From: Magnetovibrio blakemorei
Lineage (GTDB): Bacteria > Pseudomonadota > Alphaproteobacteria > Rhodospirillales > Magnetovibrionaceae
Reading direction: 5' to 3'
Length of the DNA stretch: 64,000 nt
NCBI RefSeq assembly: GCF_001746755.1
Contig: NZ_MCGG01000021.1
Coordinates: forward strand, 62,001-126,000
In this document: piece by piece, positions 134 through 16,817 of the stretch
How the letters are laid out: every line of letters begins with the position of its first letter
How positions within the stretch are numbered: the first letter of the stretch is position 1
Program-made: the position numbers and the translations under genes
Notes under the pieces: generated by a model
What the model saw: only the letters and a program-made list of their open reading frames with translations
Database searches by the model: none
Told to the model about the DNA's origin: nothing

Positions 134-1480
134 ATGCCCGATACCATTCAAGATAAGCTCAACTTGCTGCAAGACCTGATCAAGCGCGCCCAGGCCCAAG
201 GGGCCGATGCGGCCGACGCCGTGTTCGCCCAAGGCACATCGCTGTCGTTATCGTGGCGCAAAGGCGAAGTTGAGCAACTGGAACGTTCAGAAGGCCAAGA
301 TTTGGGCCTGCGTGTGTTCGTCGGCAAATCGCAAGCCATCGTGTCGTCGTCCGATATCGGCAAAACCGCTTTGGACGAATTGGTTGAGCGCGCCGTGGCG
401 ATGGCCAAAATGGTCCCCGCAGACCCCTACGCGGGCCTTGCCGATCCCGATCAGCTGGCCACCGAATTCTTGGACTTCGACATGTTCGACCCGTCCCAAC
501 CCAGCGCCGAAGAGCTCACGGAAAGCGCGCGGGTGGCGGAAGAAGCGGGTTTGGAAGTTTCCGGCGTCAGCAACTCCGAAGGGGCCAGTGCGGGCTTTAG
601 CCAATCGTCCATCGCGTTTGCCGCCTCCAACGGCTTTGCCCACACCTATCAGCGCTCCCGCCATTCCTTAAGTGCGTCCATGTTGGCGGGCGAAGGCACC
701 GGGATGGAGCGCGATTACGACTACACCGGCGCGGTGTGGGCCGAAGACCTGCAAGGGGCAGCCGCCATTGGCCGCTCGGCGGGGGAACGCGCAGTGCGTC
801 GTCTCAATCCGAAAAAAGCCAAGACCCAGCAAGTTCCGGTGGTATTTGACCACCGCGCCGCCCGCTCTCTGGTCGGACACCTGTCCAGCGCCATCAATGG
901 GTCTTCGATTGCGCGCGGCACGTCGTTTCTCAAAGACAAAATGGGCGCTGATATTTTTGCCCCCTCCATCACCATTGTGGACGACCCGCACCGCATGCGC
1001 GGCTTGCGCTCGGCAGCATTTGACGACGAAGGCATTGCCACGCAAAGGCGCAACATCATCGATCAAGGCAAGCTCACCACCTGGCTCCTGGATCTGCGCT
1101 CGGCCCGTCAACTGGGCTTGCACTCAACCGGCCATGCCGGACGTGGCGTGTCCAGCCCGCCGTCGCCGGGAGCATCGAACCTCTACTTACAAGCGGGCGA
1201 GCTATCGGTGGCGGACTTGATCAAAGACATCAAAGCGGGCTTTTTGGTCACCGAACTGATCGGCATGGGCGTGAGCACCGTCACGGGGGATTATTCCCGT
1301 GGCGCCAGCGGCTTTTGGATTGAAGACGGCGAAATCGCCCATGCGGTGTCCGAAGTCACCGTCGCCGGGCATTTGAAAGATATGTTTATGAGCATGACCC
1401 CGGCAAACGATCTCAAATTCCTCTATGGAGTTGACGCGCCAACGGTCCGCATTGAGGGCATGACCCTGGCCGGTGCGTAA
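134..1480 (+). CDS. pmbA: PmbA/TldE-family metalloprotease subunit
   Basis: The product is 448 aa, the usual PmbA length. PmbA (TldE) pairs with TldD to make a protease that matures small peptides and degrades unfolded ones; TldD carries the HExxxH zinc site and PmbA does not. No HExxxH is present here, so this is the PmbA partner. The family tail is clear: GVSTVTGDYSRGASGFWIED then the EVTVAGHLKDM motif near the C-terminus, and an N-terminal SWRKGEVEQLERSE. A GTG at 122 would add four residues, but the ATG at 134 has GGGAA about 7 bases upstream and is preferred. No tldD is visible nearby. The TAA is followed immediately by a heptamer repeat. Confidence 0.93.
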   Translation: MPDTIQDKLNLLQDLIKRAQAQGADAADAVFAQGTSLSLSWRKGEVEQLERSEGQDLGLRVFVGKSQAIVSSSDIGKTALDELVERAVAMAKMVPADPYAGLADPDQLATEFLDFDMFDPSQPSAEELTESARVAEEAGLEVSGVSNSEGASAGFSQSSIAFAASNGFAHTYQRSRHSLSASMLAGEGTGMERDYDYTGAVWAEDLQGAAAIGRSAGERAVRRLNPKKAKTQQVPVVFDHRAARSLVGHLSSAINGSSIARGTSFLKDKMGADIFAPSITIVDDPHRMRGLRSAAFDDEGIATQRRNIIDQGKLTTWLLDLRSARQLGLHSTGHAGRGVSSPPSPGASNLYLQAGELSVADLIKDIKAGFLVTELIGMGVSTVTGDYSRGASGFWIEDGEIAHAVSEVTVAGHLKDMFMSMTPANDLKFLYGVDAPTVRIEGMTLAGA

Positions 1481-1522
1481 CGGGCAACGGGCAACGGGCA
1501 ACGGGCAACGGGCAACGGGCAA
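1481..1522. repeat. Six perfect tandem copies of CGGGCAA
   Basis: Starting on the base after the pmbA stop codon, the 7-base unit CGGGCAA is repeated six times without a mismatch. It is followed by AGAGGA, the likely ribosome binding site of the DUF374 gene at 1537. The repeat fills almost the whole 56-base gap between the two genes. Its unit is not a multiple of three, so copy-number change would alter spacing without touching either reading frame. Confidence 0.97.
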
Positions 1523-1536
1523 AGAGGACCCCTTAA

Positions 1537-2283
1537 GTGAAACTGCACAAGCGCATCTTAGAAAAGACCTGGGCCCAGTCTCTGGTGTCGTTTCTCATTG
1601 CCCGCTACCTGCGTTTTGCTCACGCCACCAGCCGCTGGGAAGTGCGCGGTTGGGACATCATTCAAAGCCAATACGACGCCGAACAGCCCATCATCGTGTG
1701 CTTTTGGCACGCGCGCATGATCATGGCGACCTTTGGCTGGCAGAACACGGTCCAACTGAGCATGCTCAGCACCCCCCATCGTGACGGAAAAATCGCCGCC
1801 ATGACCTACAATCGCCTGGGCATCAAAACCATTTGGGGGTCGACCAAAAAGGGCGGTGCTGAGGCAGCCCGCGCCATGATCCGCGCCCTCAAAGCCGGTG
1901 AAGTGATCGCCATCACCCCCGACGGCCCCAAGGGGCCGCGCCAACGCATGCAACTCAGCGCAATCAACATCGCGCGCATGAGCGGGGCCAAGCTGGTGCC
2001 CGTCACCGCCGCTTCATCGTCCAGCAAAATTCTCGGCACCTGGGATCGGCTGCAAATCCCCACTCCGTTTAGCCGCGGCGTGATCTCAATCGCCCCGCCC
2101 ATCGATGTGCCGCGCAAGGCCAGCGCAGAAGACTATGAAGCCCTGCGCCATTCGTTTGAAGAGCGGCTCAACACCATGACCCAGGACTTAGATGCCGAGT
2201 TCGGCTTGCAAACGCCAGAACCTGCCCCATTGCCCACCGCGTTGCCTGCTGAGCGCCCCGTTGACGGGGAGCACGCGCCGTGA
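1537..2283 (+). CDS. DUF374 lysophospholipid acyltransferase family protein
   Basis: 248 aa. DUF374 proteins belong to the LPLAT acyltransferase superfamily and in alphaproteobacteria typically precede waaA. Visible family marks are CFWHARMIM around residue 50, TPHRDGKIAAMTYNRLGIK, the IWGSTKKGGAEAARAM stretch and ITPDGPKGPRQRM. The acyl acceptor is not known; a role in lipid A or phospholipid acylation is inferred from its place at the head of a lipid A operon. The start is a GTG preceded by AGAGGA. The 3' end overlaps waaA by four bases, which implies translational coupling. The C-terminal 25 residues are a Pro/Ala-rich tail (PAPLPTALPAERP). Confidence 0.88.
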   Translation: MKLHKRILEKTWAQSLVSFLIARYLRFAHATSRWEVRGWDIIQSQYDAEQPIIVCFWHARMIMATFGWQNTVQLSMLSTPHRDGKIAAMTYNRLGIKTIWGSTKKGGAEAARAMIRALKAGEVIAITPDGPKGPRQRMQLSAINIARMSGAKLVPVTAASSSSKILGTWDRLQIPTPFSRGVISIAPPIDVPRKASAEDYEALRHSFEERLNTMTQDLDAEFGLQTPEPAPLPTALPAERPVDGEHAP

Positions 2284-3626
2284 AGCTGTCCTTTTACCGC
2301 ATGGCGACAACCCTGGGCGGACCGCTGATTCGCTTGTACTTAAACCGTCGCCTCAAACACGGCAAAGAAGATCCGCTGCGCTTTAACGAACGTCTGGGCA
2401 TCACATCGATCCCCCGTCCGAACGGCCAAGTGGTGTGGATGCACGCCGCCAGTGTGGGGGAAGCTTTGTCGGTTTTGCCCCTGGTGGAGCGGATCTTTAA
2501 GGCATTTCCCGACTGGTCCGTATTGATCACCACCGGCACCGTGACATCGGCACGTATCATGGCGGAACGCCTGCCCGCCCCCGCCATCCACCAATATGTG
2601 CCCGCAGATACCAGCCGTTATGTGCGCCGTTTTTTGGAACATTGGCGACCCGATTTGGCGCTCTGGGTGGAAAGCGAATTTTGGCCCAACTTGGTCATTG
2701 AAACCCGTGCCCGCGCTGTGCCCATGGTGGTGGTCAACGGGCGCATGTCGAAAAGCTCCTACAGCGGCTGGCAAAAACGCCGCGCCATGATCGGACGCAT
2801 CTTAGCGGCGTTTAAACTGGTGCTGGCGCAAAGCGATACGGATGGTGCCCGGTTTGAAGGTTTGGGCGCAAAGGCCGTCCAGGTGCCGGGCAATCTCAAA
2901 TTTGCCTCGCTGCCCCTGCCTGCTGACGAATCGGCCCTCGCAGAGCTCTCCACCTCCATCGGTGAGCGACCAAGATGGCTGGCGGCCTCCACCCACGCGG
3001 GTGAAGAAGCCGTGTGCGGTCGGGTCCATCAGGCGCTGAAGGCAAAATGGCCCCAAGTGCTGAGCATCATCGTGCCGCGCCACCCCGATCGCGGCGCAAT
3101 CGTGGCCGCAGAACTGACGGATCAAGGCCTCTGCGTCCGACGCCGCAGCCTCAACGAACCGATTGACGATACGACCGATATTTACATCGCCGACACCATG
3201 GGTGAGCTGGGTTTGTTTTATCGCTTGTGCGAAATCGTATTTATAGGCAAAACCTTGTCCATCGTCAGTGCGGACGGCAAAATAGCGGGGGGTGGGCAAA
3301 ATCCCATTGAGCCCGCAATGTTATCAAGCGCCCTGATTTTCGGCAAAGACATGAGCAACTTCGAAGATATATCATGCACTTTGGCCAAAGCAGGTGCGGC
3401 CCGTTGGGTCGCTGATGAATCAGAACTCGCCGCTGCAGTTGAGACCTTCATGAACGACCCACACCTTTGTCAACAAGCCGCAACTGCGGCCTTAACGACC
3501 GCCAGATCCGAAGCCGACGTTTTAGATCGGATCATAATGGCCCTTGCCCCTTTTTTCACAAGAACACCGCCAACACCACAGCAAGACGGTGATAAACAAG
3601 GAGGCTCCTCCCATGCGCGCGCCTGA
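2280..3626 (+). CDS. waaA: 3-deoxy-D-manno-octulosonic acid (Kdo) transferase
   Basis: 448 aa, GT30 family. WaaA (KdtA) attaches Kdo from CMP-Kdo to lipid IVA at the inner face of the inner membrane. The N-terminal lobe shows VVWMHAASVGEALSVLPL, with the glutamate expected for the catalytic base, followed by LITTGTVTSARIMAERLP. The C-terminal lobe carries GGGQNPIEPAMLSSALIFG, the CMP-binding signature. Translation starts at a GTG inside the DUF374 stop region, a four-base overlap. The 3' end runs 14 bases into lpxK. Whether one or two Kdo units are added cannot be told from sequence. Confidence 0.95.
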   Translation: MKLSFYRMATTLGGPLIRLYLNRRLKHGKEDPLRFNERLGITSIPRPNGQVVWMHAASVGEALSVLPLVERIFKAFPDWSVLITTGTVTSARIMAERLPAPAIHQYVPADTSRYVRRFLEHWRPDLALWVESEFWPNLVIETRARAVPMVVVNGRMSKSSYSGWQKRRAMIGRILAAFKLVLAQSDTDGARFEGLGAKAVQVPGNLKFASLPLPADESALAELSTSIGERPRWLAASTHAGEEAVCGRVHQALKAKWPQVLSIIVPRHPDRGAIVAAELTDQGLCVRRRSLNEPIDDTTDIYIADTMGELGLFYRLCEIVFIGKTLSIVSADGKIAGGGQNPIEPAMLSSALIFGKDMSNFEDISCTLAKAGAARWVADESELAAAVETFMNDPHLCQQAATAALTTARSEADVLDRIIMALAPFFTRTPPTPQQDGDKQGGSSHARA

Positions 3627-4647
3627 TTTTTGGGATCGCACGACCGACGGCTTACTGCCCACCTTTTTGCGCCCCCTAGGCTGCATTGCGGCGGGTATCG
3701 GCACCCTGCGACGCAAGGCCGCAACTCCTTGGCGCGCTCCGGTTCCGGTGATCTGCATTGGCAACTTGGTGGTCGGCGGGGCCGGTAAAACTCCGGTCGT
3801 GATCGACATTGTGACACGCCTCAAAAAACAGGGTGTTGACGCGCATATCGTCTCGCGCGGTTATGGCGGCTCCGAACTTGGCCCGGTGCGCGTGGACGTC
3901 AGCACTCACACCAGCTTAGAGGTTGGTGATGAGCCCTTGTTGTTGGCGCGCATCGCCCCCACCTGGGTTGCCCGCGAGCGCCGCATTGCCATTGAAGCCG
4001 CCGTTCAAGCGGGGGCCCAGATCATCATCATGGACGACGGCTTTCAAAACCCCAGCGTTGAAAAAGATTTTTCCATCTTGGTAGTGGATGGCAGTTACGG
4101 TTTTGGCAATGGCCGGGTGATGCCTGCCGGGCCGCTGCGCGAAACCATTGAAAGCGGCTTGGCGCGCACCGATGCCGTGGTGTTACTGGGCGCGGATGAA
4201 GCCGACGTCTGGTGGCGCGTGCGCAGTCTGGGCTTTAAAGACATGTCGGTCCTGCGCGCAAAGCTCGAACCCGTTGGCAATTACGCCGACCTGAAGGGTC
4301 AAAAGATCGTCGCTTTTGCGGGTATCGGGCAGCCTAAAAAGTTTTTCAAAACGTTGGAGGGTCTGGGCTGCAAGCTGGCCGATTGTCATGCATTCGACGA
4401 CCATCACCCCTATTCCGAGGCGGAAATTCTCTCGATCCTCGCCAACGCCGTGGAGTTGCCGGTGCTGACCACCGCCAAAGACCATGTGCGCCTCAGCCCC
4501 AAACACCAAAAGCGCATCCGCGCCATCAACATTCAACTCACCTGGAAAATCACAGGTGAGGTCGATGCCATGCTGGCCCCGTTGGTGGAAAGCGCGCTGT
4601 CGGACACGCCAGCTCAGGTCAACGTTGAATCGAGCCCGAATGCCTAA
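3613..4647 (+). CDS. lpxK: Tetraacyldisaccharide 4'-kinase
   Basis: 344 aa. LpxK phosphorylates the 4' position of the lipid A disaccharide using ATP. The P-loop is seen as GNLVVGGAGKTPVV around residue 53, and the family motif DDGFQNPSVEKDFSILVVDG lies about 90 residues later, followed by RVMPAGPLRE. An upstream in-frame ATG at 3544 exists, but the ATG at 3613 has a strong GGAGG eight bases away and gives the normal N-terminus (MRAPDFW). That GGAGG is part of a small perfect palindrome, GGAGGCTCCTCC, which could mask the site. The gene overlaps waaA (14 bases) and the next gene (8 bases). Confidence 0.95.
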   Translation: MRAPDFWDRTTDGLLPTFLRPLGCIAAGIGTLRRKAATPWRAPVPVICIGNLVVGGAGKTPVVIDIVTRLKKQGVDAHIVSRGYGGSELGPVRVDVSTHTSLEVGDEPLLLARIAPTWVARERRIAIEAAVQAGAQIIIMDDGFQNPSVEKDFSILVVDGSYGFGNGRVMPAGPLRETIESGLARTDAVVLLGADEADVWWRVRSLGFKDMSVLRAKLEPVGNYADLKGQKIVAFAGIGQPKKFFKTLEGLGCKLADCHAFDDHHPYSEAEILSILANAVELPVLTTAKDHVRLSPKHQKRIRAINIQLTWKITGEVDAMLAPLVESALSDTPAQVNVESSPNA

Positions 4648-5539
4648 ACCCGTTTCGCCGCTCAACACCCGCAAACCCACCTTTGTCGATTTCATCGGCG
4701 CGGGGGTTGCGCGCGGCGGGGTGTTTGTCTTGCGGTTGTTGCCGTTCGCCTTGGCCTCGGCTATCGGTGGCGTGTTGGCGTCAACCTTTGGACCATTGCT
4801 CAAACCCTCCAAAGCCGCACGGATAAATTTGTCTTTGGCGTTTCCCGATAAAGGCGAGGCGGAGATCGAACAAATTTTACGCCAAGTGTGGGAAAATATG
4901 GGCCGCACCGCCTTTGAGTTCGCCCAAATGGACCATCTGCTGAGCGACACCGGCAAGAAAAGGGTCTATATCGAAGGTCAAGACAATCTTGACGCGGCCC
5001 TTGGGTCGGGAAAGCCTGTGCTTTTTTTCAGCGCCCACTTGGGCAACTGGGAACTGTTGCCGGTTTCGGCGGGCATCCTTGGTTTTGGCGTCCATGTGTT
5101 TTATCGCGCCCCCAACAATCCGTTGTTGCAAGACGTGTTCACGCGGCGCTCCTCTCCTGGTGAATTGATCCCCAAGGGTGCACCCGGCGCCAAGCGTGCC
5201 TTTACGTTGCTCAAGCGGGGCGAAAACTTAGGCATCTTGGTCGACCAAAAGCTCAACGACGGCATTGCCGTGCCGTTTTTTGGCCGCGACGCCATGACCG
5301 GGACCGCCTTGGCCGAATTCGCGCTCCGCTTCGATGCTCCGATGGTGCCCATTCAATGCATCCGTCTGCCCGGTGCACGCTTTAAAGTGATTTACCATCC
5401 GGCCCTGAAAGTCACCCCCACGGGCGACAAAAAAGCCGATGTGCGCACCATCATGACGGACGTCAACGCGACCTTGGAACGCTGGATCGCCCAGCACCCC
5501 GGCGACTGGCTGTGGCTGCACAAACGCTGGCCCGTCTAA
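4640..5539 (+). CDS. LpxL/HtrB-family lipid A acyltransferase
   Basis: 299 aa. The family transfers a secondary acyl chain from acyl-ACP to Kdo2-lipid IVA. The catalytic HX4E signature is visible as AHLGNWELLPVSAG near residue 134, with a hydrophobic N-terminal anchor (GVFVLRLLPFALASAIGG) before it and the later motifs VDQKLNDGIAVPFFG and PGDWLWLHKRWPV at the C-terminus. The start at 4640 overlaps the lpxK stop by eight bases and gives a normal N-terminus; an earlier ATG at 4484 lies deep inside lpxK and was rejected. It completes the operon DUF374-waaA-lpxK-lpxL. LpxL versus LpxM specificity is not decidable. Confidence 0.9.
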   Translation: MPKPVSPLNTRKPTFVDFIGAGVARGGVFVLRLLPFALASAIGGVLASTFGPLLKPSKAARINLSLAFPDKGEAEIEQILRQVWENMGRTAFEFAQMDHLLSDTGKKRVYIEGQDNLDAALGSGKPVLFFSAHLGNWELLPVSAGILGFGVHVFYRAPNNPLLQDVFTRRSSPGELIPKGAPGAKRAFTLLKRGENLGILVDQKLNDGIAVPFFGRDAMTGTALAEFALRFDAPMVPIQCIRLPGARFKVIYHPALKVTPTGDKKADVRTIMTDVNATLERWIAQHPGDWLWLHKRWPV

Positions 5540-12418: not shown

Positions 12419-13433
12419 TCAAGACGACATCCAAGACGCTCCCGAGGACCCCACCGAAGACGACGTTAACAACGCAGCCTCAGATGAGGCTGACAAAGGC
12501 GAACGCATTGCCAAAGTGATCGCCCGCGCGGGACTGTGTTCCAGGCGCGACGCGGAACGCCTGATCGAAGAGCGACGCGTCAAGGTCAACGGCAAACTCA
12601 TCGACAGCCCCGCCACCTTTGTCAGCGACCCGACCACCGTCGTTGTCGACGGCAAACCTTTGGCCGCCCCCGTTGAACCCCAATTGTGGCGTTATCACAA
12701 ACCGCCTGGACTGGTCACAACGCACAAGGACGATCAAGGCCGCGAGACGGTGTTTGATAAATTACCCCGCGAAGCCGGACGGCTGGTCTCGGTGGGACGC
12801 CTCGATCTCAATTCCGAGGGTCTGTTGCTGCTGACCAACGACGGCGGGCTGGCGCGCGAATTGGAACTGCCATCCAACGACTGGGTGCGCACCTACCGGG
12901 TGCGGGTGTTTGGTTTTGTCGATGACGAAAAGCTGGCCGCATTGAAGGCGGGCATCACCCATGACGGCGTGACCTATGGGTCCATCAATGCGCGCATTGA
13001 AAAGAAAACCGGGCGCAATGCGTGGCTGATCGTGTCGCTGACGGAAGGCAAAAACCGCGAAATTCGCCGCGTCATGGAATACCTGGAACTCCAGGTGAAC
13101 CGCTTGATCCGCACCAGTTACGGACCGTTTCGTCTCGACAACCTGCAACGCGGCGACCTGCAAATGATTCCGCGCCGCCAGATGATTGATCAGTTGGGCG
13201 GCAAGCTTGATGGCTCCGGCATACCGATCAAAATGACCAAAACGGGTTGGGCCAAAGCCAAACCCAAATCCAATGCCAAGCCGAAATCGAAGCCACGGCC
13301 AAAACCCCAGGGCTCAAAACCCCTTAGCTCAAAACCTCAGGGCACAAAACCTTGGGACACAAAACCTGCGGGCAAGGGGCCGGTTAAGTCCAAAGGCCCG
13401 CAACGCAAGCCCCGCACGTCGTCGAGCGCGTGA
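12411..13433 (+). CDS. rluB: 23S rRNA pseudouridine synthase, RluB type
   Basis: 340 aa. An acidic leader (DDIQDAPEDPTEDDVNN) precedes an S4 RNA-binding domain (ERIAKVIARAGLCSRRDAER and EERRVKVNG). The catalytic domain has GRLDLNSEGLLLLTNDGG with the nucleophilic Asp, and KNREIRRVMEYLELQVNRLIR. The family isomerises U2605 of 23S rRNA (E. coli numbering). From about residue 265 the protein has a basic low-complexity tail built of KPK and then repeating five-residue units of the form xxKPx (13308-13380), likely an RNA-contacting disordered tail. Start overlaps the preceding stop by eight bases. Confidence 0.92.
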   Translation: MTDQDDIQDAPEDPTEDDVNNAASDEADKGERIAKVIARAGLCSRRDAERLIEERRVKVNGKLIDSPATFVSDPTTVVVDGKPLAAPVEPQLWRYHKPPGLVTTHKDDQGRETVFDKLPREAGRLVSVGRLDLNSEGLLLLTNDGGLARELELPSNDWVRTYRVRVFGFVDDEKLAALKAGITHDGVTYGSINARIEKKTGRNAWLIVSLTEGKNREIRRVMEYLELQVNRLIRTSYGPFRLDNLQRGDLQMIPRRQMIDQLGGKLDGSGIPIKMTKTGWAKAKPKSNAKPKSKPRPKPQGSKPLSSKPQGTKPWDTKPAGKGPVKSKGPQRKPRTSSSA

Positions 13434-14156: not shown

Positions 14157-14555
14157 ATGGCAACACCGCCGCTTTTCATCATGCTCAGCTCAGTTGATCG
14201 TGACAAACTGCAACTCGCTTCCATGATCGCGTCCGTCGCGGCTGTGTCTGAACGCCCTGTTCACGTTTTTGTGTCCATGGGTGCCATTAAGGTCTTCGCC
14301 AAAACCGCCAGCGGCAATGACCGCTACGGTGACAGCGCTTTCAATGCTGAACTGTGTGAGAAAAATGCCCCAGACCCCATCGATATGTTCGGCCAGGGCA
14401 AAATGCTCGGCGATATGAAGGTGTGGGCCTGTTCCATGGTGCTTGACGTATTGGGCTGGGATGAAAGCGACTTGGTTGATGATTTATTTGATGGTCAAAT
14501 GGGTCTCACCAAATTCTTGTCCGACGCCGAAGAAGGTCAATTGCTGTCCATGTAA
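14157..14555 (+). CDS. DsrE/TusD-like sulfur-relay protein
   Basis: 132 aa. The N-terminal strand PPLFIMLSSVDRDKLQLASMIASVAAV and the VFVSMGAIKVF segment fit the DsrE/DsrF superfamily, cytoplasmic proteins that carry sulfur as a persulfide. Cysteines are at 67 and 92; C92 in KVWACSMVLDVLGW sits where DsrE-family proteins keep the reactive cysteine. The ATG has AGGAGG eight bases upstream. It opens a four-gene run with TusA, a flavoprotein and DUF1641, spaced 82, 63 and 13 bases apart. It probably exchanges sulfane sulfur with the adjacent TusA; this is inferred from context. The larger DsrE2 type, with membrane anchors, is excluded by size. Confidence 0.8.
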   Translation: MATPPLFIMLSSVDRDKLQLASMIASVAAVSERPVHVFVSMGAIKVFAKTASGNDRYGDSAFNAELCEKNAPDPIDMFGQGKMLGDMKVWACSMVLDVLGWDESDLVDDLFDGQMGLTKFLSDAEEGQLLSM

Positions 14556-14637
14556 GGCAAACCATTTCTCTTCACGCTAACACCAAAAGGCATCCCATCG
14601 CCCCCGGGGTGCACACAAGCCCAGGAGTCCAAACCAT

Positions 14638-14868
14638 ATGAGTGAACGTAAACTAATTGATGCCCGTGGTTCTTTTTGCCCCGGCCCGCTGATGGAACTC
14701 ATCGCGTCGCTGAAGCTGATGGAAATCGGTCAGGAAGTTGAAATTCTGTCCACCGATCAAGGTACGGCCAAAGACGTACCTGAATGGTGTGCCAAAGTCG
14801 GCCATGAAACGGTTGAATCTGGCGAGAAAGACGGCCACTGGTATGTGGTTGTGCGCAAAGCAAAATAA
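14638..14868 (+). CDS. TusA-family sulfurtransferase
   Basis: 76 aa. The signature DARGSFCPGPLMELIASLK contains the CPxP motif with the sulfur-accepting Cys at residue 14. TusA proteins carry a persulfide for tRNA thiolation or, in sulfur oxidisers, to Dsr or Hdr systems. Being placed between a DsrE-like gene and a sulfide oxidoreductase points to the second role. An AGGAG lies 12 bases before the ATG. The C-terminal strand GHWYVVVRKAK is typical. Confidence 0.9.
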   Translation: MSERKLIDARGSFCPGPLMELIASLKLMEIGQEVEILSTDQGTAKDVPEWCAKVGHETVESGEKDGHWYVVVRKAK

Positions 14869-14931
14869 TCATCTATCGATCCGCTGCGGCTTTGGGGAGC
14901 CGTCGCGTTAACACACTAAGGGAGGTATTCC

Positions 14932-16071
14932 ATGTCAAAGAAGATTCTTATCGTTGGTGGCGGTTTGGCCGGCACCATCATTGCCAACGGACTGTGCCGT
15001 CATATCAGCACAGAAATCCGCAAAGGCGATGTGTCTATCACCATGTTGGGAAACACCGACACCCACATGTATCAACCGGGCCTGTTGTACGTTCCATTCG
15101 GCAAAATTCGTGAACGCGAATTGTTCCGCCCGCAGCGCAAGGTTTTGGACAAGCGCATCATCTTCCACATCGACCCTGCGACCAACATCGACGTCGACAA
15201 CAAAAAGGTCACGTGTAAATCCGGCGCTGTGCACGAATACGACTATCTGGTCATCGCCACCGGTTCGCGTTTGATGCCGCAAAATATTCCGGGCATGGTC
15301 GAAGGCGCACATTGGCTCTACGACCTTGAAGGCGCGCGCAAGATGCGCGATGCACTGGACAAGTTCGAAGGCGGCAAAATCGTCGTCAACGTCAACGCAC
15401 CGCACAAATGCCCGGTTGCTCCGCTGGAAATCACCTTCATGTTGAAAGAATACATGGAAGGCAAAGGCCTGTGGGACAAGACCGAGATCACCTACACCTA
15501 TCCCATCGGTCGTTTGCACGCGCTGGAACCCGTTGCCGAATGGGCCAAACCCGCAATGGATGCCGTTGGCATCAAGTACGAAACCTTCTTCAACACCAAA
15601 GAAGTCGATCCCAAGGCCAAGACCATTTCGTCGGAAGAAGGCGTTACGCTGCCTTACGACCTTCTGGTCACCATTCCGCCGCACGCTGGTGCCGAAGTCA
15701 TCACCGATTCCGGTTTGGGCGATGGCGGCTGGGTGCCGACCAACAAAACCAAATTGCTGCGCGAAGGTTCAACGGACGTGTTTGTGTGTGGCGACACCAC
15801 CAACATTCCGATTTCCAAAGCCGGTTCCACCGCGCACTTCGAAGCCGACACCATCATCGACAACTTGGCGTCCTTGCTGACCGAAGGGCGCTGGGCGCGC
15901 GATTACGATGGCAAAGTCTTCTGCTTTGTCGAAACCGGTTTGAAAACGGGGACCTACGTGTGGTTCAACTACACCACCCCGCCGAACCCCGGCGCCCCGT
16001 CACAGATGATCCACTGGTTCAAGCTGGCCTATAACCGACTGTATTGGCTGTCCGCACGCGGCTTACTGTAA
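14932..16071 (+). CDS. Sulfide:quinone oxidoreductase-like flavoprotein
   Basis: 379 aa, two-dinucleotide-binding flavoprotein fold. The FAD site is KKILIVGGGLAGTIIANGL at the N-terminus, the second glycine-rich stretch is YLVIATGSRLMP, and the C-terminal FAD motif is VFVCGDTT. SQR enzymes oxidise sulfide to sulfane sulfur and reduce quinone, using two essential cysteines; here C160 (HKCPVAPLE) and C331 (VFCFVETG) are the candidates. The third cysteine of classical type I enzymes, near residue 128, is absent. The C-terminal segment MIHWFKLAYNRLYWLSARGLL is an amphipathic membrane-contact helix. GGGAGG lies seven bases before the ATG. FccB is an alternative, but there is no signal peptide and no cytochrome partner. 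Confidence 0.85.
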   Translation: MSKKILIVGGGLAGTIIANGLCRHISTEIRKGDVSITMLGNTDTHMYQPGLLYVPFGKIRERELFRPQRKVLDKRIIFHIDPATNIDVDNKKVTCKSGAVHEYDYLVIATGSRLMPQNIPGMVEGAHWLYDLEGARKMRDALDKFEGGKIVVNVNAPHKCPVAPLEITFMLKEYMEGKGLWDKTEITYTYPIGRLHALEPVAEWAKPAMDAVGIKYETFFNTKEVDPKAKTISSEEGVTLPYDLLVTIPPHAGAEVITDSGLGDGGWVPTNKTKLLREGSTDVFVCGDTTNIPISKAGSTAHFEADTIIDNLASLLTEGRWARDYDGKVFCFVETGLKTGTYVWFNYTTPPNPGAPSQMIHWFKLAYNRLYWLSARGLL

Positions 16072-16084
16072 GGGAGCAGATATC

Positions 16085-16606
16085 ATGAGCGAGACTCAAG
16101 AAAGTACGCTGCGCCTAGTTCAGGCCGCGACCGATGCCATGACCGACGGCATGGTCGAACGCTTCGCCACAACCGGCGGCAATGCGTTGGAAGTTTTGGA
16201 TCGTCTCAACGACGACGATACCAAAGACGCGATTATGAACACCATCGACCGCCTGACCGAACTGCAACGTTCAGGCGCGCTCGACACCTTGTTCGACGTC
16301 GTGATCTTGATGCATGGACTGCGCTCGGCAATGACGGATTCCATGGTCGAACGTCTGGTAATTTGGGCGGAAACCATGATCAACAACGTCGCCAACGAAC
16401 ATCTGGCCGAATTTGCCGGGGAAACCGTTGACGCCATGCACGAAGCTGCCGTGGAAACAGCGGCGCACAAATCCAGCGGTGGTCTGATCTCGACCATCTC
16501 CATGCTCAGCAAACCGGAAACCCAGCAAGCCATCAAGTTTATGATGAACTTCGCCTGCAAAATGCAGAAAAACGTCTCCGATTCTCAAGGTTTAACGAAC
16601 GAGTAA
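16085..16606 (+). CDS. DUF1641 family protein
   Basis: 173 aa, mostly helical and without membrane segments. The repeated pattern MTDGMVERFATTGGNALEVLDRLN, then MTDSMVERLVIWAETMINNV, shows an internal duplication of a helical unit. DUF1641 proteins are frequent neighbours of sulfide:quinone-type oxidoreductases and of formate dehydrogenase accessory genes; their biochemical role is unknown. The start is 13 bases behind the flavoprotein stop with GGGAGC upstream, so the two are almost certainly translated from one mRNA. The gene ends 26 bases before a strong terminator. Confidence 0.85.
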   Translation: MSETQESTLRLVQAATDAMTDGMVERFATTGGNALEVLDRLNDDDTKDAIMNTIDRLTELQRSGALDTLFDVVILMHGLRSAMTDSMVERLVIWAETMINNVANEHLAEFAGETVDAMHEAAVETAAHKSSGGLISTISMLSKPETQQAIKFMMNFACKMQKNVSDSQGLTNE

Positions 16607-16631: not shown

Positions 16632-16672
16632 GCTCGCCGTGGCTCCCCTGGTGCCACGGCGAGCTTTATTTT
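16632..16672 (+). terminator. Rho-independent terminator closing the sulfur cluster
   Basis: A perfect 12-base-pair stem, GCTCGCCGTGGC paired with GCCACGGCGAGC, encloses a nine-base loop and is followed by TTTATTTT. It lies 26 bases past the DUF1641 stop and marks the end of the dsrE-tusA-sqr-DUF1641 unit. Confidence 0.92.
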
Positions 16673-16817
16673 GTGCAAATGATTTTACGCCCGGATTTGA
16701 TCAAACACTTGAAGTTAAACCGTGACCGGCGCAATGTGCGCACCTTGTACAATCCCCAAATACCTTCAAAATAGATTGCCCCATGAACACTACCCCGATG
16801 GACCACACAATACGATC

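Follow-up and report, generated by a model that had tools for sequence, protein, structure and literature searches.

Is sulfide:quinone oxidoreductase (SQR) always a one-protein enzyme? It is usually described as a single protein that sits on the membrane by itself. The question is raised by a 64,000-nucleotide stretch of the genome of the magnetic marine bacterium Magnetovibrio blakemorei MV-1 (contig NZ_MCGG01000021.1, positions 62,001 to 126,000; here called the window), where a gene for an SQR-type flavoprotein is preceded by dsrE-like and tusA-like genes and followed by a gene for a helical protein of the DUF1641 family. The gene set is conserved, the fourth protein is homologous to DUF1641 proteins, and the pairing of SQR with DUF1641 is near-invariant. 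The cluster probably encodes a two-subunit cytoplasmic SQR, in which the DUF1641 subunit couples the enzyme to the membrane and to quinone, while the sulfane sulfur is handed to TusA and DsrE. Each part of the cluster belongs to a known kind, and the conserved pairing of SQR with DUF1641 is a new variant, undescribed in the literature searched. The MV-1 genome was examined as 3,638,804 bases in 91 contigs, and the features of the cluster in the window are the following:

14157..14555, + strand: gene for a dsrE-like sulfurtransferase of 132 amino acids (aa), with DsrE_2 (PF13686) and invariant C92
14638..14868, + strand: tusA-like gene, 76 aa, with invariant C14 in FCPGPLME
14932..16071, + strand: gene for the SQR-type flavoprotein, 379 aa, with redox cysteines C160 and C331 and the C-terminal tail YW..ARGLL
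16085..16606, + strand: gene for the DUF1641-family helical protein, 173 aa, with two TDxMVERL units and a DUF1641-like C-terminal cap
16632..16673, + strand: intrinsic terminator common to the cluster, with the stem GCTCGCCGTGGC/GCCACGGCGAGC and then a T-rich tail

The open reading frames bear out the initial annotation, which had placed four genes here in one dsrE-tusA-sqr-DUF1641 cluster; the gaps between successive genes are 82, 63 and 13 nt.

How constant is the pairing? A single-sequence search of 120 related genomes found the DUF1641 protein in 27, each time with an SQR gene, whole or cut, directly upstream. When the loci of 26 of these genomes were extended (the window's own being left out), all four genes were present in 23; the incomplete loci end at a contig edge (L044), are broken or wrongly joined (L052), or have no dsrE that could be found (L055). 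In L052 (genome G032, 4146-4711) the beginning of dsrE is joined straight onto the end of sqr, through an internal deletion or an assembly join. Searched from the other side (E<=1e-40), this SQR occurs in 31 of the 120 genomes, and 29 of them have an adjoining DUF1641 gene: the same 27, together with G018 and G022, which have diverged copies in the same gene order that Pfam does not name. Of the remaining two, the locus in G100 breaks off at a contig end, and G064 has a lower-scoring SQR of another group, without DUF1641. A class-wide sample of 385 genomes yielded the DUF1641 protein in five (the window's genome included), and these five are also the ones with high-scoring SQRs; one further genome has an SQR of 197 bits and no DUF1641 protein.

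The same four-gene order was also looked for among named loci, a check that the initial annotation had proposed. Among the best 80 of 538 such loci the order is complete in 64; tusA lies upstream of sqr in all 80, dsrE is present in 65, and a DUF1641-type gene directly follows sqr in 78, the other two ending at a contig edge. The record titles include Alphaproteobacteria, Gammaproteobacteria, Magnetococcales, a Muproteobacterium and a Nitrospirae bin. In 398 genomes of the phylum, the sole match to PF07849 (locus L168) lies directly behind an SQR-like gene that is 35% identical to the window's. Clustering of neighbouring genes with a crude gene caller, outside the module's reading frames (the excluded frames at module positions include some on the opposite strand), gave families in at most 11 of the 80 loci, many of them probably spurious, and was dropped.

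Does the pairing extend to archaea? A tblastn search of plasmids with the SQR gave 41 records, 28 of them haloarchaeal by name, and the closest full-length match is 45.9% identical. Sixteen of the 41 were inspected, chosen to spread over taxa, and in ten of these an annotated DUF1641 gene directly follows the flavoprotein gene. The haloarchaeal names among the ten are Halobaculum (2), Haloarcula hispanica, Halopiger, Halomicrobium, Natronosalvus, Natronorubrum and Salarchaeum; the others are Comamonas and P. aeruginosa pKLC102. A profile search adds DUF1641 in Haloarcula sinaiiensis (88 bits) and, weakly, in Proteus (40 bits). Within the 16 records, DUF1641 is absent after SQR in the plasmids of Chlorohelix, M. 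kubicae and Pelagibacterium, and the M. marseillense record, with 158 bases downstream of SQR, was left out of the judgement. In six inspected haloarchaeal records tusA stands beside sqr, which gives a haloarchaeal tusA-sqr-DUF1641 order, found for example on plasmid pHH400 of Haloarcula hispanica. When the plasmid loci are taken together with L168 and L193-L197, DUF1641 accompanies 15 of the 16 SQRs that score at least 200 bits against the window family and none of the five evaluable ones below 200 bits (L196, in the lower group, contains some masked bases). That this SQR group goes with a DUF1641 gene is well supported, and gene order in bacteria and archaea lends strong support to the earlier suggestion of DUF1641 as a dedicated partner for the flavoprotein.

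In a midpoint-rooted SQR tree, unlinked SQRs separate the Natronorubrum and Salarchaeum pair from the main DUF1641-linked clade, so that the pairing is either old and was lost, or arose more than once. L214 and L218 represent a second haloarchaeal SQR group, distant from the main group in the tree, whose DUF1641 partner is longer (278-281 aa) and whose SQR tail differs. Diverged dsrE-tusA-sqr-DUF1641 clusters are found beside ABC transporter permease genes in L193 and L194, the former also beside a gene for a CCG/4Fe-4S protein. L195 (3156-5441) has an SQR of a different group (186 bits), with a DsrE-family gene downstream of it and no DUF1641 gene.

Is the fourth protein a DUF1641 protein? 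That label fails for the window copy itself in Pfam, where PF07849 gives no match up to E=1, nor does it match any protein of the MV-1 genome; for the family, profile homology upholds it. PF07849 matches 20 of 27 family members at E<=1 (best 2.8e-7) and 37 of 85 members at E<=0.01, the next Pfam family reaching 3 of 85. An hhalign comparison of the family profile with ten annotated DUF1641 proteins gave a probability of 98.5 over 138 columns, with an E value of 3.7e-15 that applies to that one comparison. Against PDB sequences, the 85-member profile has four matches up to E=1. Two are YjlC entries, 9pxk_E (E 1.2e-5 over columns 36-169 of 173), which bears the name 'NDH-2 membrane coupling protein', and 9snk (E 1.5e-5); the others are ForE1 (E 3.7e-4) and a designed protein (E 0.049). 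The protein is internally repeated, its halves having in common a 17-residue unit that contains TDxMVERL (probability 96, against 4.5 for the reversed control). Two such units precede the C-terminal cap in the window copy, and the number varies among relatives. One unit is found in L134 (6472-6828, 119 aa) and L147 (7141-7491, 117 aa), three in L101 (3047-3730, 228 aa) and L107 (7157-7870, 238 aa), all with the same cap. No cysteine is found among the positions conserved in at least 85% of the 85 sequences.

What does the flavoprotein do? The claim that it oxidises sulfide is supported by its fold and by its two redox cysteines, C160 and C331, conserved in 87 of 87 aligned relatives. It matches human SQOR (phmmer E 2.4e-23), and with a model of the close relative L040 Foldseek placed SQRs at ranks 1-19 (TMt up to 0.83), followed by NDH-2. 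The N-terminus opens with a FAD-binding motif, and inspection by eye found no signal peptide in it. Fold, FAD motif and both cysteines are shared with the single-subunit SQRs (human SQOR, Acidithiobacillus, Aquifex, Acidianus); unlike these, the window gene has a DUF1641 gene downstream of it. The copy in G006, which belongs to the same family and has its genome in a single contig, shares 79.7% identity with the window protein, and the Varunaivibrio sulfuroxidans SQR is reported to be 79.6% identical to the M. blakemorei enzyme (PMC10305379). Other SQR-like proteins of the MV-1 genome reach up to 32% identity.

The C-terminal end of this SQR is short. It has 48 residues after the second cysteine, compared with about 59 in the Acidianus enzyme (C350 of 409; PMC8551704) and about 80 in that of A. 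ferrooxidans (Cys356 of 434-437); an end shorter than in free-standing SQRs would fit an anchor that has moved to a partner. The tail carries a motif found by a strict pattern in 113 of 123 DUF1641-linked SQRs and by a relaxed one in 118, against none of 7 others in either case, with L146 (neighbour cut off) taken as linked and L210 (158 bases downstream seen) as unlinked. As a mark of DUF1641-linked SQRs the motif is a lead only, the others being few and related.

Which half of the reaction does DUF1641 follow? In L168, L208, L209 and L212 the DUF1641-linked flavoprotein has no adjoining tusA and keeps the first redox cysteine, with alanine at the second, so that these proteins are unlikely to use the ordinary two-cysteine chemistry of SQR; a C-terminal tail similar to that of the window group is retained. 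The L168 gene lies at 1462-3087 (also L198), the DUF1641 match in L212 is weak, and one alanine-type SQR-like gene with DUF1641 is carried among conjugation genes by the P. aeruginosa plasmid pKLC102. All aligned tusA-linked flavoproteins keep both cysteines. DUF1641 seems to follow the flavin/electron-acceptor half, that is, the quinone side, because it is paired with flavoproteins that lack both an adjoining tusA and the second cysteine and has no conserved cysteine of its own. The window DUF1641 gene adjoins a redox enzyme presumed to be quinone-linked, a link taken from SQR homology.

Two solved relatives, YjlC and ForE, provide good grounds by analogy for a quinone-coupling role of DUF1641. 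In the YjlC-YjlD pair the donor is NADH, not sulfide, and we know of no TusA or DsrE that goes with it. The likeness lies in a flavoprotein of the same superfamily (YjlD, an NDH-2, matches SQR) with a homologous DUF1641 partner, in a comparison that rests on the names of PDB entries (9pxk, 9snk, 9a63) and of their molecules. In the formate dehydrogenase ForCE, the DUF1641 subunit ForE is encoded beside a cytoplasmic redox enzyme and is reported to be needed for quinone reduction (PMC8808070, PMC13397495). Catalysis there lies with a molybdenum Fe-S protein that has no relation to SQR, and the profile similarity is weaker (E 3.7e-4). Bacillus subtilis ForC made without ForE1 is reported to have no formate:menadione activity and little bound menaquinone, and ForC without ForE to have a formate:benzyl viologen activity about 50-fold lower (PMC8808070); lipids are described at the ForC-ForE interface (PMC13397495). 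In a published table on Ignicoccus, Iho_0672 (DUF1641) and Iho_0673 (a FAD-dependent pyridine nucleotide-disulphide oxidoreductase) have neighbouring locus numbers and are both raised in co-culture (PMC3149612).

How might the cluster work? Judging from the conserved residues, the SQR would oxidise sulfide by means of FAD and its cysteines C160 and C331, so that sulfane sulfur stays bound to a cysteine. The DUF1641 protein may then bind the flavoprotein and hold it at the membrane so that quinone reaches the flavin. ForE is reported to act in this way on formate dehydrogenase, and YjlC is named for doing so with NDH-2. Gene order makes it plausible that the sulfane sulfur passes from SQR to the carriers, which would be to TusA C14 and on to DsrE C92. 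Co-occurrence suggests that in organisms like MV-1 it could finally enter the reverse Dsr pathway.

Both carriers have the cysteines named by the initial annotation: TusA (PF01206 at 74.3 bits, above cut-off) has C14 invariant in 25 aligned sequences, and DsrE (DsrE_2 at 33.2 bits, above cut-off) keeps C92 in 24 of 24, the window copies being included. The closest solved relative of the window DsrE is 2qs7; no NCBIfam model matches it up to E=1, so it falls outside the TusD/DsrE model, and the dsrE of the MV-1 dsr cluster matches TIGR03012 at 136 bits. The window DsrE is distinct from the DsrE of DsrEFH: that separate cluster carries its own dsrEFH. The nearest parallel for a DsrE/TusA pair is the relay clusters of Sulfolobales, where, as PMC4175335 reports, the thiosulfate group passes from DsrE3A to TusA in Metallosphaera, neither protein reacts with sulfide, glutathione persulfide or polysulfide, and DsrE4 genes adjoin SQR genes. 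There DsrE4 lies downstream of SQR and dsrE3A-dsrE2B-tusA stands beside hdr, whereas in the window dsrE-tusA lies upstream and DUF1641 comes after.

Is the cluster self-contained, as the initial annotation had it? MV-1 has a dsr cluster with dsrA, dsrB, dsrEFH, dsrC and dsrK (DsrF at 89.0 against a cut-off of 94.15), as well as soxB and an fccB-type gene with an adjoining cytochrome c gene. The statement that no Dsr or Sox gene accompanies the four genes is right locally and wrong for the genome, where the dsrA and soxB matches lie on contigs other than the window's. The CCG (HdrB-type) domain, which is not Hdr-specific, matches ten times in the genome; two of these matches share the window's contig, at a distance of about 43 kb from the window. 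The module also tracks dsrA: among the 120 relatives dsrA is above cut-off in 25 of 27 module genomes and 31 of 93 others (Fisher p=2e-8), outside the own family in 15 of 17 and 26 of 85 (p=1e-5), and soxB in 18 of 27 and 37 of 93 (p=0.012), p-values that are too small because the genomes are related. G018 and G022, with diverged copies, were counted as lacking the module in the dsrA test, though both have dsrA, and G061 has a complete module with no dsrA match. The presence of dsr, sox and fcc genes and the co-occurrence with dsrA leave the idea of a self-contained module unsupported.

Several points, together with the overstated p-values, weigh against a two-subunit SQR of this kind. To our knowledge, known SQRs reduce quinone without a DUF1641-type partner. 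AlphaFold2 modelled the DUF1641 protein alone poorly (27 sequences, pLDDT 60, pTM 0.22), and Foldseek with this model found no PDB match. A read-through SQR-DUF1641 chain reached a pTM of 0.67, close to the value expected from its SQR part by itself (379 of 560 residues); its linker is of low confidence, its helical part gained confidence while the placement of that part did not, and no SQR-DUF1641 interface emerged. The SQR tail as an amphipathic membrane helix was rejected, being no better than its own shuffles. The Chlorohelix plasmid (L207) has tusA-sqr without DUF1641, and in 15 of the 80 named loci no dsrE was found next to tusA-sqr. L213, L214 and L218 are DUF1641-linked and lack tusA, and they keep both cysteines, so loss of tusA and loss of the cysteine do not always go together. 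On the Chlorohelix plasmid (2639-4901) rhodanese and glutaredoxin genes come next and the SQR tail motif is missing. Long open frames in L024 and L030 that looked like natural SQR-DUF1641 fusions proved to be overlapping frames.

Could DUF1641 instead serve the assembly or stability of the flavoprotein, in FAD insertion or oligomer state, with no part in quinone coupling? Pairing alone does not tell the role, an SQR-DUF1641 interface was not predicted, and the roughly 50-fold loss of benzyl viologen activity in ForC without ForE would fit such a factor (PMC8808070). The same enzyme, though, loses all formate:menadione activity and most of its bound menaquinone (PMC8808070), the YjlC entry is named for membrane coupling, and the partners differ in cofactor type, from FAD enzymes to a molybdenum formate dehydrogenase, with quinone as their common factor; a pure assembly role is therefore unlikely. 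That DUF1641 serves as an adaptor by which sulfur passes from SQR to TusA and DsrE is highly improbable: the constant place of tusA beside sqr, in all of the best 80 of 538 named loci and in six haloarchaeal records, speaks for it, but DUF1641 also pairs with seven tusA-less flavoproteins (L168, L208, L209, L212, L213, L214 and L218), the first four without the second catalytic cysteine, has no conserved cysteine itself, and is missing from the tusA-sqr locus of Chlorohelix.

A different doubt concerns the flavoprotein, which might be a related enzyme, acting for example on a persulfide or a low-molecular disulfide, and not the cellular sulfide oxidase, the carriers being biosynthetic. It scores 333.6 bits, below the 525-bit cut-off of the type III SQR selenoprotein subtype NF049943, the closest curated SQR model, and MV-1's other SQR-like proteins and FccB-type protein could do the lithotrophic work. 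As the fold and both SQR cysteines match and the module co-occurs with dsrA, this is rather improbable.

Beyond the two-subunit SQR, a wider and more tentative possibility is that DUF1641 is a general docking subunit that gives otherwise soluble redox enzymes access to quinone and the membrane: formate dehydrogenase, NDH-2, and a widespread two-subunit class of SQR in Proteobacteria and haloarchaea. DUF1641 might then dock at the SQR tail N..YW..ARGLL and itself be a modular rod, built of one to three repeated units and a cap.

Do the expression signals hold up? The initial annotation had given all four genes strong ribosome binding sites and one shared terminator. The Shine-Dalgarno consensus is AGGAGG. 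It is matched at 6/6 positions before dsrE and 5/6 before tusA and sqr; since a random window position reaches at least 5/6 in 2% of cases and at least 4/6 in 29%, these three sites are strong and the 4/6 of the fourth gene is merely ordinary. The terminator was confirmed: it has a 12-bp stem, a 9-nt loop between the arms and a T-rich tail, and the stretch of 74 nt has a folding energy of -30.9 kcal/mol (z -6.2, equalled by none of 200 shuffles). A simple terminator scanner did not list this hairpin, probably because of the 9-nt loop. Among six neighbouring proteins scanned by Pfam between 11.1 and 21.3 kb there is no sulfur protein. Short tandem repeats with periods of 15-30 lie at 13252-13374, at the 3' end of the upstream pseudouridine synthase gene.

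Has such a pair been described before? The literature searched, which included no subscription papers or preprints, yielded no description of the SQR-DUF1641 pair or of this cluster. Passages on DUF1641 (PMC8808070, PMC3149612, PMC7409299, PMC9684190) do not link it to SQR, and the main text of PMC10090944 names neither YjlC nor YjlD. The cluster offers a cytoplasmic route by which sulfide-derived sulfur could reach the reverse Dsr pathway through TusA and DsrE. If true, a second SQR subunit shared by bacteria and archaea would alter both the assays and the annotation of this group, and a textbook one-protein enzyme would become a two-protein enzyme. The DUF1641 family would gain a role that can be checked by a simple activity test.

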